DNA of 64,000 nucleotides from Bradyrhizobium sp. 170 (GTDB taxonomy: Bacteria > Pseudomonadota > Alphaproteobacteria > Rhizobiales > Xanthobacteraceae). Made by a program: the position numbers and the translations under genes. This document shows positions 32,180-51,584 of the stretch, one piece after another; the first letter of the stretch is position 1; each line of letters begins with the position of its first letter. The stretch is from positions 1,922,001-1,986,000 of the forward strand of contig NZ_CP064703.1 of assembly GCF_023101085.1 (NCBI RefSeq). Direction: 5' to 3'. Below the pieces are notes generated by a model. The model was not told where the DNA came from, did no database searches, and worked only from the letters and a program-made list of their open reading frames with translations.

Positions 32180-32216
32180 GAATCTTTCCTTCAAATGGGG
32201 TGGGACTTGAACCGAG

Positions 32217-32846: not shown

Positions 32847-32868
32847 AGTGTTCCTCTCCATTCTGCAG

Positions 32869-33799: not shown

Positions 33800-33925
33800 A
33801 TGAAGGCCTCAAAATTGTCGGACGCTAAAAAGGAGTCCATTCGAAGCAGGGTAATGACGGGTCACGGTTGCGTACGTCCGCCGGTGATCCGTCGTGAATA
33901 CACGCAGGCAGACGTAAGGAACTGC
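33800..33925 (+). pseudogene. possible IS3-family orfA remnant
   Basis: MKASKLSDAKKESI followed, in another frame, by KQGNDGSR resembles the N-terminus of IS3-family OrfA (family form MKASKFSDAQKAFI and KQGEEGT). The resemblance fades after about 25 codons, and no orfB or inverted repeats were found. Confidence 0.4.
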
Positions 33926-34218
33926 GAGCGCACTCGCAGGCGAAGACGCCCGCTGCCAAAATCGCGCAACTTACAAAGCGAACAATCGTATCGTTGCGGA
34001 GATAAAATCAGGATTCCCTATCGTTCATGGACGATGGCCCGCGCCGCACAGTAGGGCAGGCCGGCAAGGCCGAGCCTGCAAGCCTTATTTCGTACAAAAA
34101 TGCTTCTTCTTCCCACAACTGCTGGGAGTAGGATGCGACCTGGCGTTTCGCGAAACGCCGAACGGAATTGGGGATCATCATGTGCTGATCGTTCAGAAAA
34201 TGGGGCATGCTCATGGGA
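33926..34218. other. intergenic stretch, no gene recognised
   Basis: This lies downstream of the hydratase gene on the - strand. A GC-rich imperfect hairpin near 34050-34075 has no T-run, so I do not call it a terminator. Confidence 0.35.
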
Positions 34219-35043
34219 TCACTTGGATTTCTCGGAAGTCGAACTGTCGGTGAGCGCTTTTTTGGGCTTGCGGCGCGCGGCAAAGGCGCGCAAACCCTCG
34301 CGGGCGGCAGTGGTGTCGAAGTTGACGGCGTAGTTCGCGGCCTCCAGATCCAGTCCCGCATTCAGCGGGATTTCGGCGGCGCGGTTGACAGTGCGCTTGG
34401 CCATTTCCATGGCGAACGAATCGTGTGTTGCGAGCTGTTCGGCAAAGGCCAGCGCCGCCGACTTCAGCTCTGGCGCGGAAGCGAAAACATGAATGAAACC
34501 AAACTCCCGGCATTCCGCGGTCGTATAGTGGCGCCCGGTCAACACCATTTGCTTGGCGCGCGCCAACCCCATCTTTCTGACCGCGAGCTGCGTTCCGCCC
34601 CAACCCGGGATGGTATTGAGTGTAATCTCCGGAAAGCCAAATCGCGCCGTATCGGACGCGACGATGAAGTCGCACGCCAGCGCGAGCTCGAAGCCGCCGC
34701 CCAATGCATAGCCATTCACCATGGCGATAGTCGGCTTTGCGAATTCATATAGCCTGAACAGGACGCGCTGACCCCTTTGCATGTCGCGATAGGCCTCCAC
34801 GCCATTCATCTCGATAAGGCCGTCGATGTCGTTGCCAGCCACAAAGGCCTTTTGTCCGGCCCCCGTGATTATGACGACGCGGGTCGCGTTATCCCGCGCA
34901 GCATCGTCAAGCATGTGGTCCAGCTCGTGCATCAACGCCGGCGTGAACGCGTTCATCTTGTCGGCGCGATTGATGGTGAGCACGCGCACTGCGCCAAGCT
35001 GCTCCATCAGCACTAGGCTGTCATCGTCAGCTGTTTGCATCAA
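34219..35043 (-). CDS. enoyl-CoA hydratase, cassette copy C (intact)
   Basis: A 274-residue crotonase-family protein. Oxyanion-hole segments are KAFVAGNDIDGL and NGYALGGGFELALACDFIV, and the catalytic loop region is FGFPEITLNTIPGWGGTQL with a Glu in the usual position. The start at 35043 or 35040 overlaps the end of the MaoC-like gene. This is the only intact copy of the cassette's hydratase; pieces of two others lie at 10190-10330 and 29441-29770. Confidence 0.9.
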   Translation of the reverse strand: MMQTADDDSLVLMEQLGAVRVLTINRADKMNAFTPALMHELDHMLDDAARDNATRVVIITGAGQKAFVAGNDIDGLIEMNGVEAYRDMQRGQRVLFRLYEFAKPTIAMVNGYALGGGFELALACDFIVASDTARFGFPEITLNTIPGWGGTQLAVRKMGLARAKQMVLTGRHYTTAECREFGFIHVFASAPELKSAALAFAEQLATHDSFAMEMAKRTVNRAAEIPLNAGLDLEAANYAVNFDTTAAREGLRAFAARRKPKKALTDSSTSEKSK

Positions 35044-35462
35044 AGGACCTTTAGGTAGTTATTGCCCGAGGCCACGATAGTGCCGCTCTCTGGTTCGTGA
35101 CCTCGGAGTAAAGATGCAGGTGTTGCGCTCCTCGTCCTTCTCACGCACCACCAGCTTTGCGGTGATGGTGTCCCCGAAATAGACCGTGGCATCGAAGGTG
35201 ACGCCATATCGGTAGGGCACTGCGCTTCCGGAGCCTTTGCTACCATATATCCCATCACGGTGGAGAGAAGGCCGACCGAGAGCGCTCCCTGCGCGATCCG
35301 TTTTTTGAAGCGCGTATTCTTGACGTACTCCTCATCGAGGTGCAGGCCGCAGAAGTCGCCGACAATGTCTGCGCATGCATATACGTCATATTCGGTCACG
35401 GTCTTCGCGACGTCGGCGATATCGCCGATGGCATAACAGTTCATGTTAGGTCGCTTAGCCAT
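35040..35462 (-). pseudogene. MaoC-like hydratase, cassette copy C, with paired frameshifts
   Basis: The first 81 codons (MAKRPNMNCYAIGDI to APEAQ) and the last 20 or so (ESGTIVASGNNYLKVL) are in one frame and match MaoC-like proteins. The middle, about 35105-35219, makes sense only in another frame, where it reads VPYRYGVTFDATVYFGDTIT and LVVREKDEERNT. Two compensating frameshifts therefore scramble some 38 residues while keeping the ORF open. It could be a pseudogene, or a sequencing error could exist at each end of the segment. The longer ORF runs to 35630 but its start region lacks MaoC similarity. Confidence 0.7.
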
Positions 35463-35529
35463 GATGTTGGGATTGATCTTTCGAGCTGCCGCTTCTGATC
35501 GTCTCGACCTCTGCGAACCTGGAAGTAAG

Positions 35530-35795
35530 CTTCGGCTGCCGTGGACGTGTGGGCTTACTCGTCCAAATGGTAGAAGCGACCCCGTGCCGGGGTTAGGACA
35601 CTTTGTGCGAATGCTTGGACTTTTCGGCAACCGCGCGCTGGGGGCTCGCAGAAGGGCACCGCACTTGTCACCGCCGAAGGCGGCGAATGGATCGGCGCAG
35701 CTATCCAGATGCCGATGTCACGTAAGAAAGTACAAGAAATTCGGAAATGCGTCCTAACGCGTTGCGCTCTGTTCGCCAATACTTTCGCTCAATCG
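35530..35795 (-). repeat. upstream repeat of the MaoC/hydratase cassette, copy C
   Basis: It matches 10600-10885 over most of its length and 29905-30110 in part. It lies just upstream of the MaoC-like start and probably includes the old promoter. Confidence 0.7.
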
Positions 35796-35905
35796 AAGTC
35801 TATCGTCGTGTATCAAAAAAGCACGGAGGGGGAGCGGCAGCATGAAACATTTGGCGTGAACTTCGGGTCCATCCTGAGGTCAAGGCACCGGCGGACCGTC
35901 TGCCC

Positions 35906-36362
35906 ATGATCACACATGGCGCGGTGCGGGACATTACCGACCTCGCGATGATCGGACTGGGCATCGTCTTCGTCCTCTACGGCGGCGAAATGCTCTCGCT
36001 AATTGGGACGGAGACTGCGTGGTCACTGCCGATCTCGATGGTCTACCCGAATCTTGCCGTTCCGGTCGGCGGTGCACTTTGCATGCGCTGGTGCGGATGG
36101 TCGTGTCGCGCCTCTCGCCTGGTACGGTGGAGACACCCGTCGGCGCGTCGGGATATCGAACCACATCTAACAGTTGGGGGGCGCGATCGTGTGGGGTCTT
36201 CGTGTTGGCTGCGTCCTTCTTGGGCTCCGTGCGCCGGTTGCGATCTGCATTGGAATTGCGAGAGCGCGTGCCGTCGCGCCGACCGGCGCACCGCTGCTGG
36301 TCATTCCACAGCAGCTCTTTGCCAACTTGTATAATGTCGGCCTGCTGACGATTCCGTTTTTC
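35906..36362 (+). pseudogene. TRAP transporter DctQ/DctM relics
   Basis: The first part encodes the membrane-spanning end of a DctQ small permease (IGLGIVFVLYGGEMLSLIG, ISMVYPNLAVPVGGALCM). A frame change is followed by DctM-like pieces (LRAPVAICIGIA, LFANLYNVGLLTIPFFM). Both proteins are truncated, with more than 300 residues of DctM missing. Confidence 0.7.
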
Positions 36363-36881
36363 ATGGACGCCGATCGCTACGAACTTAGCGGCCGCACCGA
36401 CATCGCTCGCGGCAAGCGGATTGTCTGCGGTGGTGGCGGATTGCGGCTCTTTGCGATCCGACTTCTGATTTTCGGACTTGGGCTGACGCTGACGCCCGGG
36501 TTCGCCGCGGCAGGCGACGGGCTGAAGGTGACGAATGCTCGGGTTTCCGCATCCGATCAGATCGGTATCGATCTGCCGCTTTTGATGACAATCAAAAACG
36601 ACGCAGCCGAAGCTGACGCCATTTTGCGCGTCCGCTGTCCATTCGCAAATTTTTCGGAAAAGCACACTGTCGATCGCGGCGAGGGCGCTCCCGCCATGCG
36701 TGCGATCAGGTCCATTCCGATTCCGGAGAACGAGACGCTCGAGCTCAGGCGGGATGGATACCATGTTATGCTGCTCCAGACGCGGCAGAAACTTATCGAC
36801 GGCGAGACGTTCACATGCGCCGTCGTTTTCCAGAAAGCCGGAACAAAAGAAACGGAGGTGCAGGTTTCACGAACGCCCTGA
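36363..36881 (+). CDS. PCu(A)C-type periplasmic copper chaperone
   Basis: A hydrophobic segment (LLIFGLGLTLTPGFAAA) acts as signal peptide, followed by a PCuAC domain. The copper motif H-x10-M-x21-H-x-M is exact: His in EKHTVD, Met in APAMRA, and the YHVML pair. It would deliver Cu(I) to periplasmic oxidases. The ORF is open from 36174 and reads through DctM debris. ATG 36363 still encodes DctM-like residues, and TTG 36441 is another candidate, so the true start is uncertain. It lies upstream of a methanol-dehydrogenase-type stub. Confidence 0.8.
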   Translation: MDADRYELSGRTDIARGKRIVCGGGGLRLFAIRLLIFGLGLTLTPGFAAAGDGLKVTNARVSASDQIGIDLPLLMTIKNDAAEADAILRVRCPFANFSEKHTVDRGEGAPAMRAIRSIPIPENETLELRRDGYHVMLLQTRQKLIDGETFTCAVVFQKAGTKETEVQVSRTP

Positions 36882-36990
36882 TCTCAGACAGTGGACCGGT
36901 GAGCCCGCTGGATAAGGCTTCTCAGCCGAACGCACGGACGCTTGCCGGACATTCGATCAACCATAACCATACCAAAGGAGGGCACTACTC

Positions 36991-37362
36991 ATGGAGCGAT
37001 TGTCAGATCGCGTAAGAATATCGACGCGAGCGCGGCTGCTTGCGGTTGCAATCGCCGCGGGAGGCATGATGGCTGCAGCGCAGGTCTGTGCCGCGGATGA
37101 GGTCACTCAGGAACGGCTGCTCAATGTCGACAAGGAGCCGCGCAATTGGCTTCATCATCATCAGAACTATTCGGCTCACCGGTTCTCTACTCTAAAGGAG
37201 ATCAACCGCGATAACGTGAATGTTTTCATCCGCGAGACATGCAGAAAGTCACTGCCCGACCGGTTGCTCACCGTCGAGCGCAACTTGTTCAGGCGAGCCG
37301 GCCGAGACGTGAGGGACTTCGTTGATCGGACGTATGTTCGGATTACCCGGGAGATGCAATAG
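36991..37362 (+). pseudogene. N-terminal stub of a PQQ-dependent alcohol dehydrogenase
   Basis: A good ribosome binding site (AAAGGAGGG) and signal peptide (cleaved near AAAQVCAA) lead into VTQERLLNVDKEP, NWLHHHQNYSAHRFSTLKEI and NRDNV, the N-terminus of methanol/ethanol dehydrogenases. Similarity stops about 80 codons in, at about 37230. Roughly 500 residues, including the PQQ and metal sites, are missing, so no enzyme can be made. Confidence 0.8.
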
Positions 37363-37496
37363 GGCTCCTCTGCCGAGCCGGTACATTGTGGTTTCCACTT
37401 CTTCAACTTGCGTCATCGGCTTGGAGAGTTGCCGAGGATGCAAGAGGGCGTGTGCTCGATGCGCAGGCCAAGCTCAGCCTCTCCAGGAAAAAAGAG

Positions 37497-37592
37497 ATGA
37501 GGTGGAACGCGCCGAAGATCGTAGAACTGCCGGTCGGCATGGAAATCAACATGTACGCCTGTGCCAGCCGCAGTCGGTATCCCGGAGTGTAG
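37497..37592 (+). CDS. pqqA: PqqA, precursor peptide of PQQ
   Basis: A 31-codon ORF with AGGAAAAAAG upstream encodes MRWNAPKIVELPVGMEINMY and an 11-residue tail. Glu16 and Tyr20, the two residues that are crosslinked to form pyrroloquinoline quinone, are in their exact places. The usual short basic C-terminus is replaced by SRSRYPGV, so the end may be decayed. No pqqB, C, D or E lies in the window, making it an orphan here; a functional gene set may be elsewhere in the genome. Confidence 0.85.
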   Translation: MRWNAPKIVELPVGMEINMYACASRSRYPGV

Positions 37593-37764
37593 GCTTCGTT
37601 TGAGGTATTTCGCCTGTTGCCTGATCGGCCCGGTGCAGGTCAGCTGCGGGCGGCTGCCGTAACTTTGCGAGTTGGAGCAGCTTTGCGATGCTGCCACTCG
37701 TTTTCACCGGAATCTAGTCAAGTTCAATCGCCTCGAATTCGCCCCGTAAGGAGGTTTTTGGCAA

Positions 37765-38259
37765 ATGGCAAAGTTAAACATCAACGGCAGAGATCTCTCC
37801 GTGGATGCGGCACACGATACGCCGCTGCTCTGGGTCATCCGCGAGCAATTACAGATGACCGGTACGAAGTTCGGCTGCGGCGCAGGTCTCTGCGGCGCCT
37901 GCACGGTTCACGTCAATGGCGAAGCCGTCCGTTCCTGCCAGACCATGGTCAGCGACGCCGTCCGGAAAAAGATCACCACCATCGAGGGGCTTTCCGCCAA
38001 GGGCGATCATCCCTTGCAGAAGGCCTGGATCGCCGAGCAGGTGCCGCAATGCGGCTACTGCCAGTCCGGCCAGATCATGCAGGCGGCCGCGCTGCTTTCC
38101 AAGAATTCGAATCCGACCAAGGATGAAGTAGTCGCGCATATGGACGGCAATCTGTGTCGCTGCATGACCTATTCGCGCATTCAGAAGGCGATCATGCGCG
38201 CCGCGTCCGAATGCGTACCGCCTCCAACGCCGGCACCGAGCGGAGGGCCACATGAATAA
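37765..38259 (+). CDS. [2Fe-2S] small subunit of an isoquinoline 1-oxidoreductase-type enzyme
   Basis: A 164-residue xanthine-oxidase-family iron-sulphur subunit. The plant-type cluster motif is [15 protein letters not shown], and the second cluster uses [10 protein letters not shown] and [18 protein letters not shown] lies 13 bases before the ATG. It is complete and overlaps the large-subunit gene by 8 bases, but that partner is truncated, so the enzyme is probably not assembled. Confidence 0.88.
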
Positions 38260-39187
38260 GCACATCAAAGTCACCGATAGCGCGCCGGCCGATCTCAGCC
38301 GCCGCTCGTTCCTGGTCGGCTCGGCAGCCACCGGTGTCGTGCTCGGCTATGCGGCGGTCCCCGGCATTGATCAGGCGCTCGCGGCGCCATTCAACTTCGA
38401 ACCTTCGGTCTGGTACTCGATCGCGCCCGACGGCCTCGTCACCGTCACCTGCGGCAAGGCCGACATGGGCCAGCATATTACATCCACGATGGCGCAGATC
38501 GTCGCCGAAGAACTCGGCGCGAACTGGAAGGACATGCGAGTGCAACTCGCGTCCAACGATCCGAAGTTCAACGACCCCGTGCTGGGCGCGCGCGATTTTA
38601 CGTACCGCAACTGGATGGATGCCGTGCGCAACGGCGATACGTTCATCACAGTCGGGCCGCTCGTGGATATGACGGTGGAAGGACGCCGTCCAGGGAGCAA
38701 GATCGCGCTTCCTGTTTCAGGCGGAACCGTCGCCGTCAACTGGCGGATAGAATCGGTCAGCGTCCGGCCAACGCGAGTCGAGTTGATTCGCAATGGCACC
38801 GCAGTCGACGAAGTGCGATGCAGTCACCTGTCATGCAACGGCCATTTCCCCCTACGCGTCACCGAGTCTTGCTGGGTCGCGATCCGTGTTCGAGGCAGTG
38901 TCGCCGGGCGCGAGGCCGACATCGCGGCCCACACCAGTGCAGTGTATGTCGGAGTCGGGGAAAAACCCATCTTTGCGATCGCAGACGCGATGTCGGTCCT
39001 CGCGCAGATCGAGGGATCGATCGCCTACGTTGATACGCTGGCCCCCCGGGCCGATGAAGCGCGGCACGCGCGGCTGCGGGCTACTCTGGAGCTTGCACAT
39101 CATCGCCTGCATCACAGGCTTCACGAACTCGGCGCCAGCCACGAGCATGTGCCAATCCATTCGGTTCATGTTGAACGCGAGCATTGA
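38252..39187 (+). pseudogene. chimera: molybdenum large-subunit N-terminus joined to a CehA/McbA-type C-terminus
   Basis: Residues 1 to about 114 match the start of the isoquinoline 1-oxidoreductase beta subunit: a Tat signal (SRRSFLVGS), SIAPDGLVTVTCGKADMGQH and AEELGANWKDMRVQLASND. From about residue 118 (RNWMDAVRNGDTFITVGPL) to the end, the sequence resembles the C-terminus of CehA/McbA-type metallohydrolases. The junction is near 38595-38605. The 311-residue ORF is open, but neither parent keeps its active site. A new function cannot be ruled out. Confidence 0.7.
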
Positions 39188-39671
39188 TGAGCGAAAACCT
39201 AGGAAAAGGAATCTGTTGTCCGTTTCCGCTTGTCTGTGTTGGCAGCGTCGCGTGGGCGCACCCGGACCATGGCACGTCCGGCTATGTCCACTGGCATTTC
39301 CAGCGACGTGCGCTCGGACAGATGGTAAGATCCTAGGTGCCCCGCAGTGAGATAACCATCGATCAGCGCCCTTGCAGTATTCGCCCGAGCTGGTTCAGAT
39401 TGTCTGAAAAATTCCCCATCGGGTAGGGGTGTCACGTTTCATCATGTTGTGCGGCGCAGCGCGGTTGGTCTGCGGTTATTAGGTTTCAAGTGACCTTCAC
39501 CAGTCAGCCGGTCTAGCACGCCTCATCCTCCAGATTTGACCAAGGTCAGCCGGTGGCTTACACCTCCGTCTAGCCGGCGGTAGGAGGGAATCGCCTATTT
39601 TTTGATCAAGGATTTCTAATGGCAACTTTTACGATGCATATGCGCATCGCTTCTGACCACGGTAAATTTTA
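39188..39671. other. intergenic stretch with weak protein relics
   Basis: On the - strand, 39199-39435 encodes ALIDGYLTAGHLGSYHL. This could derive from an ECF sigma factor C-terminus or, less well, from GH88. Neither is firm. The last 100 bases before 39672 are AT-richer and presumably hold the promoter of the papain-like gene. Confidence 0.35.
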
Positions 39672-41132
39672 ATGTATAAGTGGATTTCTTTGGCGACGAG
39701 CGCGGATCTCGCGCAGCTGTCCAATCACATCACCTCCGAGTACAACCCGGACCGGATCGCAAAGATTTTGAGCCAGGGGATCTCGGATGCGGTGAAGGGC
39801 GTCCTAATCGAGTACAACTACATCGATAAGGACTATCGCAGCACGTACTATAGTTTCTATTCGAAGAAGGGGCAGTATTATCGCAGCGACTGCGTCCGGC
39901 TGCATTTTTTTGACCAGACTGTGAAGTTAGATGACGCCAATGCTGCGCTAATTTGTCCCGATCGCGAGAAGCTCAAGTATCATTACTTCGGCTACATGGT
40001 ATTGCGGCCGACTGGCATTGCTACCATCGGCAGGACTGTGCTCTCTCCGGACATCCGCAAGGGCGCTGGACGTTTCATCATTACTGCTGATCATAAAGTG
40101 CATCTGCTCGGCTATAAGCTGGCAATACGCGGCTTTCCTTCCATGGATCAGCATGTCGATATTTCGGTTTGCGCACATGCTGCTTGTTGGTCCATCTTGC
40201 GTCACTATAGCGAGCGCTACAACGTTCATCGAGAATATTTGGTCCATGAGATCACGATGATGGCGCACGAGTTCAATCCGGGTGGTTTGGTGCCGTCTAA
40301 GGGCTTGCAGATCGCTCATGCCGAACGCGTGTTTCAAGAAGCGAACACTTTCCCTATCCATATCGCGCGCAACACCACGACAGGTACTCAGGACCATCCG
40401 TTCTATAGGCAACTGATTGCCTATATAGAATCGGGCTTCCCTCTGTTCGCCGCGATGCATTCGCGGCGCCATGCGGTTGCGCTCGTGGGCTATGAATGGC
40501 GTCAACCGGTGAAAGGTCACTGCGGTCTCCGGCATGCTTGGGACGAAGTCGAAACGCTTGCTGTTGTCGACGACAATCACCTGCCGTACTTGTCCATTCC
40601 GAAGTCGAGCGGAAGTGCCTATGCGGCGGAGGCGATTGACGCCTTTATCGTAGCGCTTCCTGAAAAGGTCTATTATCCAGCTGATGCCGTTGATCGGTTG
40701 GCTCCTGCCTTGTTCACGCTTGGTCGCGCGATCGGGCTCCCGCCCAAGGACGAGACCATTATCCGCTACTTCATCACCACCGGCTCGTCTTATCGCCGTT
40801 TTGCGCGAGAGCATGCATCCGAATTTGATCCGAAACTCCTGCAGTACATCATGACACTGCCGTACGCCCAGTTTATCTGGGTGGTCGAGTTTTCGACGGA
40901 GGAACAGTGGGCTAACGGAAGGGTTGAGGCGCGTGCGGTGATCGACGCCACGGCCAGCTTACGCGAGCAGATGCCCCTCTGGCTGTTCCACAGCCGCACC
41001 GATGCCTTGATTTTCGATCGGAAGCAGGTGGGCCAAATCGCTTCCGGCATGGGTGGCCTGAAACTTGCCAATGCCGGTCATGGAGGATTCTCGCGGATCG
41101 ATTGCAATTTGCGACCAACTCAGACGAAATAG
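39672..41132 (+). CDS. papain-like cysteine-protease-like protein of the ubiquitin-like island
   Basis: I recognise no named family for this 486-residue protein. A papain/C39-like catalytic pattern is visible: Q160, then C167 in VCAHAACWSILRHY, H267 in RRHAVALVGYEW, and D300/D301 in VVDDNHLP. These are in the order and spacing of such proteases. The N-terminal 150 residues and a 150-residue C-terminal part are of unknown fold. It lies upstream of a 63-residue gene and the ubiquitin-like operon. It may cleave conjugates or the ubiquitin-like protein, or be the effector. There is no signal peptide, so it is cytoplasmic. Confidence 0.75.
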   Translation: MYKWISLATSADLAQLSNHITSEYNPDRIAKILSQGISDAVKGVLIEYNYIDKDYRSTYYSFYSKKGQYYRSDCVRLHFFDQTVKLDDANAALICPDREKLKYHYFGYMVLRPTGIATIGRTVLSPDIRKGAGRFIITADHKVHLLGYKLAIRGFPSMDQHVDISVCAHAACWSILRHYSERYNVHREYLVHEITMMAHEFNPGGLVPSKGLQIAHAERVFQEANTFPIHIARNTTTGTQDHPFYRQLIAYIESGFPLFAAMHSRRHAVALVGYEWRQPVKGHCGLRHAWDEVETLAVVDDNHLPYLSIPKSSGSAYAAEAIDAFIVALPEKVYYPADAVDRLAPALFTLGRAIGLPPKDETIIRYFITTGSSYRRFAREHASEFDPKLLQYIMTLPYAQFIWVVEFSTEEQWANGRVEARAVIDATASLREQMPLWLFHSRTDALIFDRKQVGQIASGMGGLKLANAGHGGFSRIDCNLRPTQTK

Positions 41133-41181
41133 CGCTATCGACACGCGCCGAAGCGCATTCAAGACTTCAGGGAGATCACCG

Positions 41182-41373
41182 ATGGCTGACGATGCACAAG
41201 ACAAGACAAATGAAAGACCTGAAATGCTTCAAGGGCTTGCGCCGGTCGATGCCAAGCTTTTGCAGGAGTTCCTCAGTGAGATGAACGAGCACGTGATCCC
41301 CGACATCGTCAAAGCCGTGGAGGAGAGGCGTTTGCAGGCGGCTGAAAGCCGTCAATGGCAGCTAAAATGCTGA
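41182..41373 (+). CDS. small acidic protein of the ubiquitin-like island, 63 aa
   Basis: A short ORF with a good GGAGAT ribosome binding site 50 bases after the papain-like gene. The protein is charged and likely helical (LQGLAPVDAKLLQEFLSEMN, then a Glu/Arg-rich helix). I do not recognise it. Its spacing suggests co-transcription with the papain-like gene. It could be a partner or substrate. Confidence 0.6.
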   Translation: MADDAQDKTNERPEMLQGLAPVDAKLLQEFLSEMNEHVIPDIVKAVEERRLQAAESRQWQLKC

Positions 41374-41386
41374 GAGGTGCAGCGGC

Positions 41387-41773
41387 TTACTTGAGGGGCT
41401 TCTTCAGGCGCTCATAAGCCGCGCGTACGATTGCTTCCACCGCTTCTGCGGCCTCAGCGTCCAAGGCCGGATCAGCCCGCAAAAGGCTAGAAATTTGCAC
41501 CATGGGCTCTGGCTGGCTGGCGCGATAGGGCGCGTTGACAAAATCCGACGGATTAAGTCCGGCCCAGGCAGAAAGCGCGGCCAAACTGGCCGCGTCTGGA
41601 CGCCGGCCCTGCGCCATGCGCGTCAGGGTCGAAGCGCTAACGCCGGTTGCTTCTGACACCTCTTTCCAGGTGACGTCGCGAGTTTGAACCGTTGTTTCCA
41701 GCGCCCGGTAGAAGGCATCTCCGTCAAAGCCTTTGGTATCGTTAGCGTTTCTTGCGTTCTCAGAAATTGCCAT
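41387..41773 (-). CDS. XRE-type transcriptional regulator of the ubiquitin-like island
   Basis: A 128-residue protein with a helix-turn-helix at residues 35-56 (TWKEVSEATGVSASTLTRMA) and an acidic, Ala-rich C-terminal helix. It is divergent from the ubiquitin-like gene. Two identical palindromes ATTGC-N6-GCAAT lie in the 80-base gap, one across its own start codon, so it probably represses both itself and the operon. Confidence 0.85.
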   Translation of the reverse strand: MAISENARNANDTKGFDGDAFYRALETTVQTRDVTWKEVSEATGVSASTLTRMAQGRRPDAASLAALSAWAGLNPSDFVNAPYRASQPEPMVQISSLLRADPALDAEAAEAVEAIVRAAYERLKKPLK

Positions 41774-41781
41774 TTAGCAAT
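41766..41781. promoter_or_regulatory. palindromic operator 1 of the ubiquitin-like operon
   Basis: ATTGC-N6-GCAAT spans the start codon of the XRE gene. An identical arrangement lies 43 bases on, about four helical turns. Confidence 0.7.
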
Positions 41782-41808
41782 TGACTTTCTATTTCGGGTC
41801 CTCTATCT

Positions 41809-41824
41809 ATTGCTTGATAGCAAT
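41809..41824. promoter_or_regulatory. palindromic operator 2 of the ubiquitin-like operon
   Basis: Second ATTGC-N6-GCAAT palindrome, 30 bases upstream of the ubiquitin-like gene, in the position expected for a repressor site over its promoter. Confidence 0.7.
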
Positions 41825-41853
41825 TTGACTTCGGAATCGCAAGGGGAAAGCGT

Positions 41854-42354
41854 ATGACTACCGAACGCACGGATATCCTTGAGGCGGAAGGCCTCCGACA
41901 CGACCACTTGGTCACTGTGAAAGTGAATGAGCGCCCGCTAAAGCTGCTGGGCCCGCGTGAAACTGGCGAGCAGATCAAGATCGCTGCGATCGAGCAGGAC
42001 GTTGAGATCGGCAAGGACTACCTGCTGGACGAAGTCCTCCCCGATGGTACCCATCGTCACATCGAAGATCATGAGCCGGTAGAGCTTCGCGATCAAATGG
42101 TGTTCGTGGCGCACAAGCCTGAACACATCGTCATCATCACTGTCAACGAACAGCCGGTGAACCTCAAAGGCCACTCCGCCACCGGCACAGAGATCAAAGC
42201 CGCCGCCATTGCTCAAGGTGTAGCGATCCAGCCCAATTTCGTGCTGCAGGAAGAGCTGCCTAATGGCACCAGCCGTATCGTCGGCGACAATGACGTCGTT
42301 CATCTGCGCGAACATCTTCGGTTCACGGCGATCGCGCCAGACGACAACTCCTAG
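41854..42354 (+). CDS. tandem ubiquitin-like (multiubiquitin) protein
   Basis: A 166-residue protein with two beta-grasp repeats, about 19-87 and 91-160. Both have the pattern VTVNEQPVNL...G...A.TGxEIKxAAIxQGV...L...LPxGTxRxIxDxxxVxLRxxxxFxA. This matches the bacterial multiubiquitin family. The C-terminus is APDDNS, without the Gly-Gly tail needed for classical conjugation unless it is trimmed or conjugated differently. It heads an operon with the E2-like and JAB-E1 genes (12-base gap to E2). Confidence 0.88.
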   Translation: MTTERTDILEAEGLRHDHLVTVKVNERPLKLLGPRETGEQIKIAAIEQDVEIGKDYLLDEVLPDGTHRHIEDHEPVELRDQMVFVAHKPEHIVIITVNEQPVNLKGHSATGTEIKAAAIAQGVAIQPNFVLQEELPNGTSRIVGDNDVVHLREHLRFTAIAPDDNS

Positions 42355-42366
42355 GCAGAAATTGCC

Positions 42367-42753
42367 ATGAAAGTGGAAGTTTCTGCCGCCATCGAAGATT
42401 TGAAGAAGCAATTCCCCTCTGCCTCCGTCAACACGCGGGACGATGGGCAGGGCGGCGTCTATCTTACGGTCGAACCGGTCGCGCTTAGCGACCGGTTCGT
42501 TCCGAACAAGACCTGGGTGGGCTTCCACATCACCGCGCAATATCCCTATGCCGATATCTATCCCATGTTCATCGGTGGGGAGGTCCGGCGCGCCGACGGT
42601 CAGGGCTTTACGCCGCCGGTCACTGCAGGACATGCGTTTGAAGGAAGGCCGGCTCTGCAAATTTCCCGCCGCAACAGCACGGCCCAGAACGGTAAGCAAA
42701 AAGTTTGTGCCAAGGTTCTCAAGGTTCTGGATTTTTTGGAAAGATCGTCGTGA
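42367..42753 (+). CDS. E2-like ubiquitin-conjugating-fold protein
   Basis: A 128-residue protein matching the prokaryotic E2-like family that accompanies multiubiquitin proteins: a beta-rich core WVGFHITAQYPYADIYPMFI then VTAGHAFEGRPALQISRRN and a C-terminal helix. The only Cys is C114 (QKVCAKVLK), far along the C-terminal helix and not in the usual E2 active-site loop. Its stop codon shares a base with the JAB-E1 start (TGATG), so translation is coupled. It may be a non-catalytic adaptor or use another residue. Confidence 0.8.
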   Translation: MKVEVSAAIEDLKKQFPSASVNTRDDGQGGVYLTVEPVALSDRFVPNKTWVGFHITAQYPYADIYPMFIGGEVRRADGQGFTPPVTAGHAFEGRPALQISRRNSTAQNGKQKVCAKVLKVLDFLERSS

Positions 42754-44123
42754 TGTCCAAGTGCAGGCTCCGCATTGCCCGTTCGGACTACGAGTTACTC
42801 TGGCATCATCTCTATCAGGAGGATTGTGATGAGCACGGAGCCATCTTACTCGCGGGGCTGTCCGAACTAGGCACGATTCCACTCCTCACTGTTCGGGAAG
42901 TGCATCTGGCTAAGGACGGAATCGACTATGTAGCAGGCAAAATTGGTCACCGCGCCCTAACGCCGCAATTCATTCATCGGCTGGTTACACGCGCTCGCGA
43001 CGAGCGGCTCGTCTATTTGGCCGTTCACAATCACGGTAGCGATCGGCAAGTCGGATTCAGCGATATCGATATCCGGTCTCATGAGCGCGGCTATCCCGCT
43101 CTGTTGCAAATCGCCAAAGGCATGCCGGTTGGTGCTCTGGTATTGGGGCGGCGGGCCATGCAGGCAGATCTCTGGATGCCAGATGGCAGCCGTTGCGAAC
43201 TCGATCAGGCGAGCGTAATTGGCATGAAGATTGAGCGTCTTGCCCCTCAACTATCGAGAAATCTGAGCTCGATGGACGACCAATATGACCGCCAGATTCG
43301 TATGTTCGGTCGAGTGGGCCAGCAAACCTTATCGCGCGCCCATGTTGCGGTGATCGGGCTAGGCGGGATCGGTAGTCTGGTTGTGGAGTATCTGGCCCGA
43401 TTGGGTGTCGGCCACTTCACGCTCGTTGATGACGACGCGGTTGAGGCGTCCAATCTTGCACGACTTATCGGAGCATCGCAGTCCGACGTTGAAAATCGCA
43501 CGCCCAAAGTTCAGTTGGCACGGCGCCTCATCCAGCAGGCCAATCCATCCGCGCACATCGAGCACTTCAATGCGGATGTGGCTAAAGCTTCAGTGGCGGA
43601 CCGGCTCAAAGGCTGCGATTACATCTTTCTTGCGGCGGACTCAATGCGGGCACGCTTAGTAGTGAACGCGATGGTTCATCAATATCTTATTCCAGCCGTT
43701 CAGCTGGGCTCGAAAATCCGCGCTGATGAGCAGGGGCGGGTGATCGATGCGTTCAGTGCCATTCGGCCCATTCGTCCAGGTGCGGGTTGCCTTTGGTGCA
43801 ATCAGCTGATCGATCCTAATCTCTTGGCCAAAGAGGCCAAGACTGATGCGGAGCGAAAGGCGCAGGCTTATGGCGTTGAGGAGCCGAACCCCAGCGTTAT
43901 CACTCTCAACGCGGTCTCCGCGGGGCACGCCGTGAATGATTTTCTGATGGATTATCTCAGTCTACGCGCTGATCGCTCCTTGCATTACCAGCACATCAAT
44001 GCCCTGACCGGGAAGCTGCACTTAGTCGAACCGCGAAAGGACGCTGATTGTCCAGAATGCTCGAAAGGTGGAATGCGATTCGCTCGAGGTGATGCCGTGG
44101 ATTTGCCATGTACAGAAGGCTAG
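42753..44123 (+). CDS. JAB deubiquitinase-E1 (ThiF) fusion
   Basis: A 456-residue protein. Residues 1-165 form a JAB/JAMM metalloprotease domain with a complete motif: E27, H92-x-H94, S103-x2-D106. Residues 175-430 form an E1/ThiF adenylation domain with GLGGIGS at 202-208, the Asp of LVDDDAV at about 227 and NLARLIG. Zinc is likely bound by C346/C349 and C433/C436. No Cys lies between residues 350 and 432, where ThiF-type proteins carry the thioester Cys. The start at 42753 overlaps the E2 stop; the longer ORF from 42705 has no family match. It should adenylate the ubiquitin-like protein and also process or remove it. Confidence 0.88.
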   Translation: MSKCRLRIARSDYELLWHHLYQEDCDEHGAILLAGLSELGTIPLLTVREVHLAKDGIDYVAGKIGHRALTPQFIHRLVTRARDERLVYLAVHNHGSDRQVGFSDIDIRSHERGYPALLQIAKGMPVGALVLGRRAMQADLWMPDGSRCELDQASVIGMKIERLAPQLSRNLSSMDDQYDRQIRMFGRVGQQTLSRAHVAVIGLGGIGSLVVEYLARLGVGHFTLVDDDAVEASNLARLIGASQSDVENRTPKVQLARRLIQQANPSAHIEHFNADVAKASVADRLKGCDYIFLAADSMRARLVVNAMVHQYLIPAVQLGSKIRADEQGRVIDAFSAIRPIRPGAGCLWCNQLIDPNLLAKEAKTDAERKAQAYGVEEPNPSVITLNAVSAGHAVNDFLMDYLSLRADRSLHYQHINALTGKLHLVEPRKDADCPECSKGGMRFARGDAVDLPCTEG

Positions 44124-45637
44124 CAACCACCTCATGATATTGATCCCGCGCAGTCGCAAAAAGATCTAGATTGAAGCCAAGATGCAACCGATGCAGATGG
44201 ACATCGGAGCAGCGTGATATGGCGCGAGGTCCCTAGTTGCCGCACAAGGCGAAAGATACGTCGGACGGTGCTTCTGCGCGACGAAGCTTTCTTATCGGCG
44301 TACCGGCGGAAGTACCCGGGCTGCATCGCTCGCGAACTTCGATCTGATCAATAATGGAAGGCCTTCACCTCACGGTGGGCCCTCGCACATGAGCTCCAGC
44401 CAGACGCATTGTTTCGAAGGTCGACATCAGGCGCAACATCGCTTTGGGAGCCCTAACCAGCGTTTCAGCTGGTTCGTGTCGACGGTGAGTTTACTGGGAC
44501 AGCGGCATCTTCTCCAACGCGCCTACGGAATGGTATTGAGCGACACCCGACGCGAGCTCCCTGATCTTCTCGGTTCACTTCTGCAATCGAACAGCGTGAC
44601 CTCGGTATCGCTATAGCGAAGTTCGTCTTGTTGCGATCACGCGGGTCGGTCGTTGGTCTTAGAGCCCGAGCACCATTGTCCGCACGACTGGTATCGCCTC
44701 ACACACATCGGCTCGGGAGTCTCCGTCCTTGTACTCGCGCGCGGATCGCTGATGGCTTCCGCTGTTCTATGCAGCCACTCCTTCTCGGGGTCCTGGCGCC
44801 GCTGTCTTGACGCACAGGGAGGAAAAGCCGTTGCGCGGGAGCACGCCCCGCTGGTTCCGGATTGAGGAAGATCAAGCAGAAATTTGGACTGTCGTTGCTG
44901 TCTGAAGCGGGGCGTTTAGGCGTTCCATTTGCGTAAGCTACCTTCCTCAGTGACATCTTACCAGTTCACCAAGCTCTTCGTGTGCGACTTAGCAGCTCCA
45001 TCATTGCAAGAGCGGCGGCCGGCAGAGGAGGCCAGATACGCGCCAGTTTGACGCAACGTGATGTGACACGGAGTCTCTCAAGATGAGAAAATCGTTCCTC
45101 GTATTCTTCTGCACAAATCCTTCTGAAAATGGGCCAAGTCGAAGAGTTTATCTTCTCGTCCTCATGGGCTGGATCGACTTCACAGATGCTTGAACTCCAC
45201 TTGCACGACACAAATTTGAAATGAACCATTGCTGCTGGTAGTTGTGCTATAAGGCCTCTGGCAAGAAGCATCGTAAGGTTGAATATGAAACAGCTTCGAA
45301 ACCGCTGGGCTGCAATATAGTTCACTTCAGCTGTGGAATGAACAGTTGAAGGCCCTGCCGATGAGCCGCACGACATGAGATGCGACATGCTCATATATCT
45401 TTGCCACTCCACTGGATCCGATGCGATCGAGCAGGCCGTGAGCTGTCGAGATCTAAGGGGGCGGTACTCGCATCATTGGTTTTTAGGGTCTGTAGCACGG
45501 GAGCTCCCACGAAACTCTAAGTATCACATGAGTGCCAGAGCGGACAGCGCGGACCGCCAAATGACCGAGGAGTAGCGATCTGTGGTCGTCTTGTACCTTG
45601 AACTGAGATGCAATCCACTCGAACGGAGAAATCAAGC
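44124..45637. other. long stretch with no recognisable gene
   Basis: Several ORFs of 60-150 codons occur (44389-44616 and 45375-45575 on +; 44966-45412 on -), but none has a family resemblance and strands conflict. The composition changes from the ubiquitin-like operon, so this may be a junction of transferred segments. I see no inverted repeats or IS ends. Confidence 0.4.
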
Positions 45638-46282
45638 ATGAATGCCGTTGCCCCTAGTTTCATTCAGGATGAGAATTTTCATGCGGTAACTGCACGCCTG
45701 CTATCGGAGCAGTATCCCCTTGACGGTGGACCACGTAACAATCCCAAAGCGAGCCGCAATCCCTTCGATTACGTGGAGTACGGTCTCGGCATTGCGCCGG
45801 AGCAAGGCGAACTGATATATCTGCTCTGTCGGTGGCTGGGCACAAAGCGCGTTGCGGAATTTGCGACGTCTACCGGGATGTCAACGCTCTATCTCGCCGC
45901 CGCAATGCGTGACAATGGCGGTGGGATCGTGATTGGATCGGAACTCGTCTCCGCGAAGGCAGCAGCAGCGCGTCGCAATCTGCGCCATGTAGGTCTTTCG
46001 GATTACGCCGAGATTAGGGAAGGGGACGCCCGGAGAACTCTGCGTGATCTCGGTGGACCCGTAGATTTTGTTCTGATGGATGGCTGGTTTGTGAATGAGG
46101 GTCCCTCTTTGGCCCGACAAGTTATAGAGATTGTCGCACCGCAAGTGCGGATTGGGGGCTATGTGATGAACGAGAACGCTGAGCCCGATTTTCTCGAGTT
46201 TGTCAGGGATCCAGCAAACGGCTTTCTGCGTTTAACGTTGCCAATCAAAGTTGGCGCGGAGCTCTGCGTGAGGGTAGCCTAA
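45638..46282 (+). CDS. class I SAM-dependent O-methyltransferase
   Basis: A 214-residue protein of the catechol O-methyltransferase-like type. The SAM-binding region reads VAEFATSTGMSTLYLAAAM (about residues 79-97), with an acidic residue ending strand 2 (VIGSELVS) and VDFVLMDGWFVNEGP carrying the metal-site Asp. The start at 45638 has CGGAGAAA upstream. The substrate is unknown, and it stands alone between unassigned DNA and pabA. Confidence 0.85.
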   Translation: MNAVAPSFIQDENFHAVTARLLSEQYPLDGGPRNNPKASRNPFDYVEYGLGIAPEQGELIYLLCRWLGTKRVAEFATSTGMSTLYLAAAMRDNGGGIVIGSELVSAKAAAARRNLRHVGLSDYAEIREGDARRTLRDLGGPVDFVLMDGWFVNEGPSLARQVIEIVAPQVRIGGYVMNENAEPDFLEFVRDPANGFLRLTLPIKVGAELCVRVA

Positions 46283-46577
46283 GCCTACCCCTCGTTTTTC
46301 TCGGCCTCGTCTTGCGCAACGTGATCTGTCCGAAGGTCTTCAGATCCAATTCCGAAGCGGCATAACGCAAATGAGATGATCCCAACCATGAGAGTGCATC
46401 AACCTCATCGAATAAAGTCATGCTCTTTCGCAGCGGAGTTCTGTTAATTGAGTGCGGCTACCGCAGCTTCTGCTGGCATCTTGGATGGAATTCGTTTGCT
46501 CAGGAGGGAGCCAGCTCACTCTCACGTTGCGCAGCACGCCTCTTCCGACGTCGGACGTTGGCCATGCTGTTCGATCC

Positions 46578-47162
46578 TCAGGTTAACGAAGGTTCTGCTA
46601 TTCGCAAGAAGTTTGAAAGCAGTAGGTCCCCTTGTGGGGTAAGTATGGATTCGGGATGAAACTGTACGCCATAAGTTGGTTGATACCGATGCGCGAGGGC
46701 CATGATCTCGCCCTCCTCGGAACGCGCTGTCACCTTGAGATGCGGGGCGCATGTCTCATCGAGCTCAACAACAAGAGAATGGTAGCGGCCCACGCAAAGT
46801 GGCGATGAGAGTCCAGTGAATAGCCCCTGGCCGTCATGGGCAATATGCGAAGACCGCCCGTGCATGGGCCGACGTGCACGCACTACGCGTCCGCCGAACA
46901 CGCTCCCAATACACTGATGCCCGAGGCAGATGCCGAGAATGGGCAAGCGACCTGAAAGTTCGCGGACGATGGCCGTAGATATTCCGGCCTCGAGTGGAGT
47001 GCAGGGGCCAGGCGAGATAATCACTGCGCGCGGCTTGAGGCCAACAAGATTGCTGACGGTCAGCGCGTCATTCCGGATCACCACCGTTGCTGCGCCAAGT
47101 TTCCGGAGATAACGGGCAATGTTGAAGACGAATGAATCGTAGTTGTCGACGATAAGTATCAA
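46578..47162 (-). CDS. pabA: aminodeoxychorismate synthase component II (glutamine amidotransferase)
   Basis: A 194-residue class I glutamine amidotransferase with ISPGPCTP, the nucleophile Cys in GICLGHQCIG, and the His/Glu of GVQFHPES. It supplies ammonia to PabB for p-aminobenzoate and folate synthesis. The start overlaps the pabB stop (ATGA), so it is coupled to pabB. A broken second copy of part of it lies at 2367-2540. Confidence 0.92.
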   Translation of the reverse strand: MILIVDNYDSFVFNIARYLRKLGAATVVIRNDALTVSNLVGLKPRAVIISPGPCTPLEAGISTAIVRELSGRLPILGICLGHQCIGSVFGGRVVRARRPMHGRSSHIAHDGQGLFTGLSSPLCVGRYHSLVVELDETCAPHLKVTARSEEGEIMALAHRYQPTYGVQFHPESILTPQGDLLLSNFLRIAEPSLT

Positions 47163-48568
47163 GATGCGCCAGCTGTTTCAGCACGCAATGCGTGGAAGAT
47201 TCGCTGCGCCTTGGCGAGCGTCTCCTCGTATTCGGCCTCTGGATCAGACATCGCCGTTATCCCGCCACCTGCATGAAACACGGCCAAGCCATCGTCGATC
47301 GTTACAGTGCGGATCGCAATATTCGTATCCATATGACCGTTGAAGCCGATGAAACCGATCGCCCCGCAATAAACATCTCGCGCCACACGCTCGATTTCGG
47401 CAATAATCTCCATTGATCGCACCTTTGGCGCCCCCGTAACAGAGCCGCCGGGAAAGCAGGCTCGCAGTAGGGTGACTGCGTCTTGGTCTCCTGCGAGCTC
47501 CCCCCTTACGATCGACACGAGGTGATGCACTGAGGCATAGGATTGGAGGTCGCACAGCACTGGAACCTCGACCGAATGCGGAGTGCATACGCGCGACAAA
47601 TCGTTACGCAGGAGGTCGACGATCATAATGTTCTCGGCACGGTCCTTTTCGGACGCAACTAGGACTTCAGCGCGACGCCGGTCTTCCTCGAAATCGGCGG
47701 AACGCGCGATCGTGCCCTTGATGGGGCGCGTCTCGACCTCTTGTCCGTCAAGCTTTAGGAACCGTTCGGGGGAACTCGATGCGATGGTGAGCTTGCCGTA
47801 GCGCAAGAGGGCCGCAAAGGGCGCCGGGTTCAATGAGCGCAGCTGGCAGTAGAAGGCAAGCGGATCGAATGAGGGTGACAACCGGGCACAGAAGCGCTGC
47901 GCAATGTTGGCCTGGAAGACGTCTCCGGCCAGAATCAAGTCGATGACGCGCTGTACCGCCGTAATGTAGCCGTCACGGCTGAAGTTCGAATGCCGTACGC
48001 CGGGTGTGCCCAGGGAATCATTCCGCGGCGACTTTGGGTTAGCAAGGAGAGCTGCAAACTCATCGGCTCGACCGCGTGCACGCTCGCTCCGACGTACGGC
48101 ATCTTGTTCCGGCCATCCGGTAGAAACGATCCGGCACCTGTGGTCACTGTGATCGTAGCTGATTACCACATCATAGAAGTGTAAAACGGATTGGGGCAAA
48201 CCCAGACCAGGAATTACGGGCGCCGGCAATTGCTCCAGTGTCCTGTTCAGATCGTAAGCAAGAAAGCCGGCCACGCCTCCCTGGAACGGCGGGAGATCGA
48301 GGCGATGCTCTTGCGGATACATGGCAAGCAGGGTGCGAAGAACTTCCCATGGATCGCCCTCGAGAGCCTCTCCATTGCAACTCGCCTGTCCGTCCGCGAC
48401 CATATAGGTGCTAAATGGGTCGCAGCTCAGATATGAGTAGCGTCCAACCAACTCGTGTCTTGCCGCGCTATCGAGAAACGTAAGGTGCGCTCGATGCGCG
48501 AGAATTCGCATCGCTGTGACAGGCTCAATCCACTGCAATTCTCGGACGTGCATGGGGTTGTCAGTCAC
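47159..48568 (-). CDS. pabB: aminodeoxychorismate synthase component I
   Basis: A 469-residue chorismate-utilising enzyme. The motif VETRPIKGTIARS has the Lys (PIKGT) that marks PabB rather than TrpE (PIAGT). Other landmarks are DLLRNDLSRV, GSVTGAPKVRSMEII and the C-terminal GGGITAMSDPEAEYEET. It makes 4-amino-4-deoxychorismate with PabA. No pabC was seen in the window. Confidence 0.93.
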   Translation of the reverse strand: MTDNPMHVRELQWIEPVTAMRILAHRAHLTFLDSAARHELVGRYSYLSCDPFSTYMVADGQASCNGEALEGDPWEVLRTLLAMYPQEHRLDLPPFQGGVAGFLAYDLNRTLEQLPAPVIPGLGLPQSVLHFYDVVISYDHSDHRCRIVSTGWPEQDAVRRSERARGRADEFAALLANPKSPRNDSLGTPGVRHSNFSRDGYITAVQRVIDLILAGDVFQANIAQRFCARLSPSFDPLAFYCQLRSLNPAPFAALLRYGKLTIASSSPERFLKLDGQEVETRPIKGTIARSADFEEDRRRAEVLVASEKDRAENIMIVDLLRNDLSRVCTPHSVEVPVLCDLQSYASVHHLVSIVRGELAGDQDAVTLLRACFPGGSVTGAPKVRSMEIIAEIERVARDVYCGAIGFIGFNGHMDTNIAIRTVTIDDGLAVFHAGGGITAMSDPEAEYEETLAKAQRIFHALRAETAGAS

Positions 48569-48722
48569 TGAGGGCTAGAGTGCTGTGAGGCGTGCTCCGA
48601 TTGTGATTCTCACCTAAACGAGAGCGACGCTCGTCCATGATCAGCAAACTCTTGAGATCGGTTATCAGGTTAACCCCCGTCGATGGTACGGTGCGCGGAC
48701 CAAAATTGATTATCGCTGCTAT

Positions 48723-49028
48723 TTAAGCAATACGCACATCTGTTGATGCGTTGTAGTCGGCCGCGAACCGCAGTTCCCGGAGTGGTCGTACCCGACTGAT
48801 CGATTCCTGGTATAGATCATGCGCTTTGAAAGCTGCGAGATCCGCCTCGTTGTCGAACTCACCATAAACCACAACGTCAATGTCGTTGCCGAGCTGGTCG
48901 GTCTTGCGGTTGCGGGCAACCTCGAGCCGGCGGGCATGCGGGATTTTGGTGAGAACCGAGAGGCCTTCGATCATTTTATCGATGTGGGCCTTATCCTTAG
49001 CTGTGAACAGGACGATGTGACGTATCAT
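48723..49028 (-). CDS. Dabb (stress-responsive alpha/beta barrel) protein
   Basis: A 101-residue dimeric alpha/beta-barrel protein: N-terminal MIRHIVLFTAK, then DVVVYGEFDNEADLAAFKAH. Such proteins are small and diverse, and function is usually unknown. The start at 49028 gives the standard N-terminus. It lies upstream of pabB on the same strand, 155 bases away. Confidence 0.85.
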   Translation of the reverse strand: MIRHIVLFTAKDKAHIDKMIEGLSVLTKIPHARRLEVARNRKTDQLGNDIDVVVYGEFDNEADLAAFKAHDLYQESISRVRPLRELRFAADYNASTDVRIA

Positions 49029-49186
49029 GGATAGCCTGAGGAGTAATGAGTAGGTCGCATAACTATCGTGGGATTGAACCGGCTGCAACGCTAGCACCAC
49101 ATCCCGCGCTCGCCCGGCAAGATGGTCGCTGCTGCCGCAGTCTTGCCAGGACCGTGGTCTGCAACGGAACTCGCCAGAATTGCCGG

Positions 49187-49812
49187 TCAGGACGCAGGAA
49201 GGGCAAGGCGCTCAATCGATTGAATGTGGCGCGCGAGCAGGTTACAGGCTTGGTCGACGTTGCGCGCTCGCAATGCCTGCAGAATCAGGCGGTGATCCTG
49301 ATTGGATCGCGGTCGCCAACCGCCATCGCGAACACCAATCGAGAGTTTGCAAGCTGTAGTCCGTCGAGACTGGCGAGCAGGCGCGGCATCGCACACGGCG
49401 CCGCCAGCGCGTGGTGAAAGGCGCGGTTGGCCATCTCAAAATCCTGAATGGTCTGGGCATTCTCTCCTTCAACCAGGGCGAGCTTGATCCGTGCCAAATG
49501 GCTAGAGGTGAGCTTTGGAGCCGCATTGCGCAGGGCGACCACCTCGAGAGCTCCACGCATCTCGGCGATCTCCTTCACGGAATTGGTATCGAGTGGAGCG
49601 ACCCTCACGCCACGACGGGGCACAGCGACAACGAGATGTTGAGCCTCCAGTTGGCGAAACGCCTCGCGCACGGGGACATGGCTGGAATTGAACTCTCGCG
49701 CGACATGATCCTGCCGGAGCGGGGCGTCAGGCGGCAGAGCGCCGCTAATGATGCGCTCACCAATTGAGCCCGCAATGTGCTGGGCAATTGTGGTGTTCTC
49801 GTCTGTGATCAT
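49187..49812 (-). pseudogene. bioR: BioR-like GntR regulator with a C-terminal frameshift
   Basis: The first 165 or so codons form a FadR-type GntR protein: winged HTH (GERIISGALPPDAPLRQDHV, PVREAFRQLEAQHLV) and the start of the FCD domain. The ORF stops early at 49285. In another frame from about 49335, the sequence continues RDGGWRPRSNQDHRLILQAL to IERLALPAS, the normal FCD end. One frameshift thus removes the end of the effector domain. Its position divergent to bioB and the TTATCTAT sites nearby identify it as BioR-like. A sequencing error could mimic the shift. Confidence 0.7.
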
Positions 49813-49825
49813 AGATTATCTATCA
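49811..49825. promoter_or_regulatory. BioR-type box over the regulator start
   Basis: ATAGATTATCTAT (49811-49823) is a perfect odd-length palindrome across the regulator start codon. It contains TTATCTATCA, close to the published alphaproteobacterial BioR site TTATCTATAA. It suggests autoregulation. Confidence 0.65.
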
Positions 49826-50066
49826 CAACTGAGCGGATATATTGTGCCCCGTTCGGCGACCGGCCCGAGATGATTCGACATCGAACCTTGATTCGCCCGA
49901 TGTTGCAGGATTTCGCCGGGTTTGAGCAGTTTTTGCGGTCTTTGCGCATCGATTAGCTTTACATCTTTTTCGGAAAGGCTGGCTTTGGGCGGCGATAATC
50001 ATCTCCCAGCGGTTCCTAAGGCAATTTACTGGCATCGATCGCTCGACTATCGATAATCGGCGCTGG

Positions 50067-50076
50067 TATCTATGAT
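50067..50076. promoter_or_regulatory. BioR-type box upstream of bioB
   Basis: GTATCTATGA matches 8 of 10 positions of TTATCTATAA and lies 25 bases before the preferred bioB start, where a repressor would block transcription or initiation. Confidence 0.5.
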
Positions 50077-50101
50077 TGACGCGGGTAAGAAGGCAAGTGC
50101 A

Positions 50102-51103: not shown

Positions 51104-51149
51104 AACAGGCAGCGAGCACGCTGTACGCAAACTCCAGTGTAGGGGACAA

Positions 51150-51503: not shown

Positions 51504-51584
51504 AAGTATCAGGTGATGTTGGAGCCTTTGTGCTTGACGACATCAGAACTCTGGCGCGATCGATGCCTACGCTGGAAGTGAAGA

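Follow-up and report, generated by a model that had tools for sequence, protein, structure and literature searches.

What does a papain-like cysteine peptidase do beside a bacterial ubiquitin-like (Ubl) conjugation operon? The question is raised by a cassette of six genes in Bradyrhizobium sp. 170, located at 39531..44125 of the 64,000-nucleotide stretch analyzed here (contig NZ_CP064703.1, positions 1,922,001 to 1,986,000 of the forward strand; hereafter the window). The cassette encodes the peptidase (P1), a small protein (P2), a predicted XRE-type helix-turn-helix (HTH) repressor, a Ubl protein, an E2-like protein and a fusion of a JAB domain with an E1 enzyme (JAB-E1). The last three form a core that is itself known: it is the polyUbl operon type 6e of 2006 (PMC1779556), that is, the Bub family. 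The new part of this Ubl operon is the company of P1 and P2. Tentatively, we favor the reading that this is a Bub-type operon in which a papain-like protease, in place of the usual M78 metallopeptidase, controls the repressor.

The identity of the core rests on each of its three proteins. The Ubl protein (BubA-like; 41854..42354, plus strand) matches the Pfam family Multi_ubiq (PF14452) above the cut-off (E 1.2e-16), and its profile matches 9cd2, a multi-ubiquitin domain protein, in the PDB (E 7.8e-4). It contains two beta-grasp repeats that are 42% identical and ends in DDNS. This tail takes the form DD[N/H]S in 26/26 rows, and P1-free operons carry DDNS in 4/6 rows and HEDS in 2/6 (L042 and L063). 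The two-repeat Ubl was considered as a hallmark and rejected, as two repeats, judged by length and alignment, are found only in the window, L006, L007, L008 and L009 among the 26 rows. The E2-like protein (BubB-like; 42367..42753, plus strand) falls below the Pfam cut-off for Prok-E2_E (E 0.0028). Its E2 fold, already suspected in a reading made from the sequence alone, was supported by structure comparison (VIA-align), with BubB as the best PDB match. No cysteine is conserved in this protein, and a Q-x-S-R-R motif is invariant (L014, in which the gene is cut, was excluded from these rows). The JAB-E1 fusion (BubCD-like; 42753..44123, plus strand, starting with ATG and with an alternative in-frame TTG at 42705) matches Pfam ThiF (E 2e-41) and BubCD (PDB 9ea4; E 1.4e-27). 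No Pfam JAB family was matched; the JAB domain was assigned because the BubCD match runs along residues 5-400 and because the JAMM residues H92, H94, S103 and D106 are invariant in 21 rows. The only cysteines invariant in those rows are C4, C288 and two CxxC pairs. Single-sequence searches of the PDB with the E2-like protein, Ubl and P1 returned nothing useful, and the E2 and P1 profiles found no PDB match at E 1. The proposal that this is a bacterial ubiquitin-like system is supported.

Type 6e was described in 2006 with the JAB-E1 fusion included (Iyer 2006, PMC1779556), and so the fusion, which the sequence-only reading had regarded as a novelty, is not one. The core agrees with this type, and with Bub, in having a Multi_ubiq protein (one to three beta-grasp repeats are expected, and the window has two), a cysteine-free E2-like protein placed between Ubl and E1, and a JAB fused ahead of the E1, with BubCD and BubB as best PDB matches. 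The Bub naming was taken from PDB molecule names. The cassette differs in adding XRE, P1 and P2 and in having no M78 peptidase. No open reading frame (ORF) of 80-260 aa with the motif of the type 6e metal-binding protein Y (C-x3-C-x35-38-H-x2-C) lies near the window genes, and among 36 loci an ORF with this motif was found in two, distant from the operon. The missing protein Y does not exclude type 6e, since it is present in part of the family only. Kinship with Bil in particular had also been proposed. Like BilABCD, the window has Ubl, E2-like, E1 and JAB within one operon. According to PMC11354881, however, a catalytic cysteine is present in BilB, and the JAB (BilC) and E1 (BilD) proteins have genes of their own, whereas the E2-like protein of the window has no such cysteine and its JAB-E1 is a single ORF. 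Membership in Bil was rejected on these grounds. The source genome, a single contig of 9.2 Mb, also carries a second Multi_ubiq locus (L070, G000:C1:3572000-3589000; also L001), where a Ubl of 150 aa and an E1-like protein of 400 aa are encoded together with an HTH protein and an M78 protein of 309 aa.

An ORF check of the window found all six previously listed genes in place. P1 (486 aa; 39672..41132, plus strand) and P2 (63 aa; 41182..41373, plus strand) run rightward, and the XRE gene (128 aa; 41387..41773, minus strand) runs leftward with its end adjoining P2. The Ubl, E2-like and JAB-E1 genes run rightward from an 80-base gap shared with XRE, with 12 bases between Ubl and E2 and one base common to the E2 stop and the JAB-E1 start. 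One point of the sequence-only reading needs correction: the 63-aa gene lies after the papain-like gene and converges on XRE, and the Ubl operon does not begin with it. The window is 91.5% identical to the Bradyrhizobium loci L006/L007 across 39531-44125, to two bases beyond the JAB-E1 stop, and 77.5% identical to L008 across 39672-44124, from the P1 start. (L006 and L007 are 99.7% identical over 11.8 kb and were counted as one.) The flanks are unrelated, and no homology to these three loci was found in them. Because homology to the relatives is found inside the cassette only, the unit inherited is these six genes. Its nearest relatives in the P1 scan of genome contigs are Bradyrhizobium loci, and plasmid records contained no near match to the cassette DNA. 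The dN/dS values of the window against L006 and L008 lie between 0.07 and 0.25 for each of the six genes (0.25 and 0.11 for P2), indicating purifying selection on all six, and by these sequence comparisons the six genes do not stand together by chance.

P1 is a papain-like or C39-type cysteine peptidase. A predicted model adopts a papain fold in structure comparison by VIA-align, and the C-H-D triad is intact, with C167, H267 and D300 invariant. The central domain resembles Peptidase C39_2/C39 of the papain-like cluster in fold and in C-H-D order; it differs from these in that P1 has extra N- and C-terminal regions and no transporter. While the window P1 lies below the Pfam cut-off for Peptidase_C39_2 (E 0.045), a distant homologue in L045 lies above it. 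Ubl proteases of the UfSP/ZUFSP (C78) class have an Asp-x-His box at the catalytic histidine; this box was not found in P1. P2 matched no Pfam family. Searches of the protein database yielded 1170 homologues of P1 at E <= 0.001 (8000 candidates scored) and 96 of P2.

To what extent do P1 and P2 accompany such operons elsewhere? Scanning genome contigs, one genome per species, with the P1 alignment as query gave 34 loci. XRE, Ubl and E2 genes adjoin P1 in 25 of these, and the P2 profile matches in 24 of the 25 (L032 being the exception). The sequence-only reading had asked about co-occurrence of the papain-like and 63-aa genes with such operons in other genomes, and it is borne out at 25/34 and 24/34 P1 loci, respectively. 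Of the remainder, L011 is cut where its contig ends inside XRE and L036 and L038 contain P1 fragments only, and these three were excluded from neighbor counts; the other six have no Ubl genes in the available stretch (L025, L027, L034, L035, L037 and L039, with L034, L035 and L037 on short contigs). P1 is split into two frames in L013 and L031, by sequencing error or decay, and was left as is. Judging by record titles, the 25 P1-Ubl loci span six phyla (Pseudomonadota, Acidobacteriota, Nitrospirota, Gemmatimonadota, Chloroflexota and Spirochaetota). Many come from metagenome bins; the records not labeled as metagenome-assembled genomes are from Nitrospira moscoviensis, Pseudoxanthomonas, Novosphingobium and Bradyrhizobium.

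XRE adjoins P1/P2 in all 25 P1-Ubl loci, with an M78 gene in between in L032. The gene order of the window is retained in 16/25 loci, including L032 with its M78 gene and no P2; the Ubl operon is inverted with XRE at its end in 7/25; and XRE-P1-P2 run together, divergent from the Ubl operon, in 2/25 (L029 and L030). In a test of 20 rows, the pairwise distances of P1 tracked those of each of the five remaining genes (r 0.88-0.93), and for each gene 0/2000 permutations were as high. Six loci with a gene cut, split or missing (L009, L013, L014, L019, L031 and L032) were left out of this test. Mapping P1 onto a JAB-E1 tree (37 rows) requires five changes of state, at least four of them by well-supported branches. 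P1 occurs there in at least three separate places mostly without an adjacent M78 gene (the window type, L029/L030 and L040) and once with M78 (L045). The latter, on a P. aeruginosa plasmid (L045:2226-9019), comprises multiubiquitin, ThiF and DUF6527 genes together with an HTH-M78 pair; after these come a small ORF and a gene for a distant P1-like protein of 726 aa. No paper linking polyUbl/Bub operons to a papain-like or C39 protein was recognized in literature coverage that did not extend to the main Bub papers, and novelty in print of the P1/P2 and Ubl pairing is not established.

The M78 metallopeptidases (ImmA/CapP-type) are the class to which CapP belongs. According to PMC13373217, CapP cleaves the repressor CapH upon binding single-stranded DNA, and CapW or CapH+CapP occur in 219/544 Bub operons. 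The cassette resembles CapH+CapP in having an HTH repressor at the operon promoter and an adjoining protease gene, with XRE divergent from Ubl and a conserved palindrome. It differs in its protease, a cysteine peptidase of papain-like type accompanied by a small protein, and no M78 match was found in window positions 32001-52000. We scored M78 by a profile match at E <= 1e-5 plus HExxH near the operon, and found it in 16/21 Ubl loci without P1 versus 2/26 with P1 (L022 and L032). The Fisher p-value of this near-exclusion is 1.8e-6, or 0.0026 without six large fused proteins. The P1-free set consists of L041-L044, picked from 153 plasmid records, and L062-L070 and L120-L127 from whole genomes. 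Six of the 16 M78 matches are weak and fall in proteins of 1117-1157 aa. Proteins of this kind stand beside Ubl at L042:1435-4788 and L063:10419-13784, with similar-sized ones in L066, L069, L124 and L126; the two checked with Pfam (L042 and L063) combine M78 (above cut-off) with UvrD helicase and PD-(D/E)XK nuclease parts, and may represent a sensor of DNA damage joined to the control protease. HTH-M78 pairs in L041, L043 and L062 are divergent from the Ubl operon, the same arrangement as XRE-P1-P2 in L029/L030.

The XRE protein matches Pfam HTH_26 (E 2.8e-5), and candidate operators for it lie next to the Ubl gene. A perfect ATTGC-N6-GCAAT palindrome occurs exactly twice in the 64-kb window, at 41766..41781, overlapping the XRE start codon, and at 41809..41824, within the gap between XRE and Ubl. 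Across the window and the 25 P1-Ubl loci, TTGC-N6-GCAA precedes Ubl in 21/26 loci, with 33 sites where the remainder of those loci would predict 0.21, and precedes P1 in 1/26. Before Ubl it is found in none of seven comparison loci (L040-L044, L062 and L063; L040 has a distant P1). Of the seven loci in which XRE has moved to the distant end of the operon, five (L017, L022, L024, L028 and L033) still have the palindrome before Ubl. Because the palindrome is conserved before Ubl and nearly never before P1, the most likely target of repression by XRE is the Ubl operon, with P1 under its control at most in the two XRE-P1-P2 loci. A dedicated regulator, as had been anticipated, is likely.

The near-exclusion of P1 and M78, the separate placements of P1 on the tree and the CapP-CapH precedent suggest, as the simplest reading, that P1/P2 fills the place of CapP. 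XRE would bind the palindromes before Ubl, as the conserved site suggests, and keep the operon off. Expressed from a separate promoter and restrained by P2, P1 would sense a stress or phage signal and cleave XRE, upon which the operon would be expressed. By kinship with Bub, the E1 half of BubCD would then adenylate the DDNS end of Ubl, BubB would help pass Ubl to target proteins by a route needing no conserved E2 cysteine, and the JAB half would reverse the tag. The gene content, folds, conserved catalytic residues, linkage, conserved palindrome and P1/M78 near-exclusion in this scheme were observed. A broader form of the proposal, which we regard as possible but doubtful, is that P1 with its small partner is a new stress-gated switch that replaced CapP as the repressor-destroying enzyme and was recruited more than once, with related proteases also serving caspase-based systems.

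Several points weigh against control of the repressor by P1. The action of P1 on XRE is a proposal. Taken alone, the two palindromes of the window are nothing unusual: under a Markov model 0.22 are expected per 64 kb, with a maximum of two in 60 trials, and with one mismatch five were found versus 3.3 expected. The palindrome is missing in 5/26 loci (L014, L016, L021, L023 and L029), for some of which the assumed start codon may be wrong. The loci are related, so the p-values overstate, and of the six loci used to build the M78 profile four are P1-free. P1 and M78 occur together in L022 and L032 and, with the distant P1, in the plasmid locus L045; an M78 match 3.3 kb from the Ubl gene in L024 was left uncounted. 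Finally, there are P1-like genes without XRE or Ubl genes. One follows two caspase-domain genes in Massilia (L025:7244-11659), another lies between caspase-domain genes, including a caspase-DEAD helicase fusion, on a Hymenobacter plasmid (L047:4592-11593), and on a Shewanella plasmid (L046) P1 follows a TrlF-type gene. P1 is thus not peculiar to Ubl systems, and since it occurs without Ubl genes, P1, perhaps together with P2, has a function independent of them. An IMG/VR contig (L095:1438-10901) carries P1 (67% identical) and P2 beside genes for phage portal and head proteins; its available stretch contains no Ubl genes.

These occurrences are better explained if P1/P2 is a modular effector pair, in which P2 restrains a destructive protease, P1, until Ubl conjugation (in other loci, a caspase) sets it free and the infected cell is killed or stalled. 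We consider this rather unlikely for the cassette, as it leaves the P1/M78 near-exclusion and the constant XRE neighborhood unexplained. A small ORF does stand beside P1 in many Ubl-free loci, but this was judged by eye; the P2 profile recognizes none of these ORFs outside the clade of the window, save in viral contig L095, and a fixed pair is unproven there. PMC7159879 describes Ubl-caspase conflict systems, which likewise combine Ubl conjugation genes with a thiol protease; there, however, the protease is caspase-like and joined via shared adaptor domains, whereas that of the window is papain-like and comes with P2 and XRE. Control of XRE by P1 fits the XRE gene, the palindrome and M78 better, and release of P1 as an effector fits the caspase and stand-alone cases better. 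Both may be true if P1 is a signal-gated protease that licenses whichever partner it has.

Two further roles would have P1 act directly on Ubl, and both became less likely because some P1 loci have no Ubl genes and some Ubl operons have no P1. As a second Ubl-directed protease besides JAB, maturing Ubl or stripping it from targets, P1 would be an improbable fit. That P1 supplies the missing catalytic cysteine, as a transferase passing Ubl to targets, is highly improbable, even with an E2-like protein that has no conserved cysteine and an E1 with so few invariant ones. Some papain folds do perform acyl transfer, for example phytochelatin synthase, which is among the structure matches of P1. However, the P1-free Ubl operons L041-L044, L062 and L063 likewise have no E2 cysteine, and conjugation there therefore works without P1.

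Among Ubl operons at large, P1 is a rare, minority partner and not a usual one. It was found in 2/296 genomes of the family. In 398 sampled genomes of the phylum, JAB-E1 was detected in 14, the broad P1 family in 18 and Multi_ubiq in 15, and the genome of the window is alone in both the P1 and Multi_ubiq lists. P1 was present in none of eight further Multi_ubiq loci and none of eight JAB-E1 loci. Of 72,556 plasmid records, four contain P1, all at 24-30% identity, and 153 have a JAB-E1 match. Phage records gave ten partial JAB-E1 matches, none covering 80%; viral contigs gave no JAB-E1 match and three P1 loci, two of them almost the same sequence.

Defense-type genes lie near several of the cassettes. 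PADLOC matched 9/9 flank proteins, which were picked by eye from six of 17 flank-listed loci with no control. They include a type III restriction pair (L008), part of a type IV restriction enzyme (L018) and a SNF2-type helicase (L021), with weak matches of about 25 bits in L022 and L015; near the P1-Ubl cassette at L023:2116-19472 are Dsr1, an AbiZ-like protein and a prokaryotic Argonaute of the long type (long pAgo). Such neighbors are compatible with a defense or stress role and are not proof of one. To the left of the window cassette, at 37765-39187, the ORF list shows what look by eye like molybdenum hydroxylase pieces, one a 2Fe-2S subunit and the other a large subunit in truncated form. 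Farther away are an IS66-like transposase gene (20933-22522, by eye) and a gene (22712-23986, about 16 kb from the cassette) whose 424-aa product begins with an HTH-like segment and contains a HELAH motif.

According to PMC13373217, protection against phage by Bub conjugation has yet to be demonstrated. The cassette, conserved as six genes and equipped with a candidate operator and a protease that can be named, offers a direct handle on the purpose of this conjugation. If it is true that P1 replaces CapP, the protease slot of such switches would be exchangeable between unrelated enzyme classes. Additionally, P1-like proteases adjoin caspase genes, so the role of P1 here may bear on other protease-based bacterial systems.

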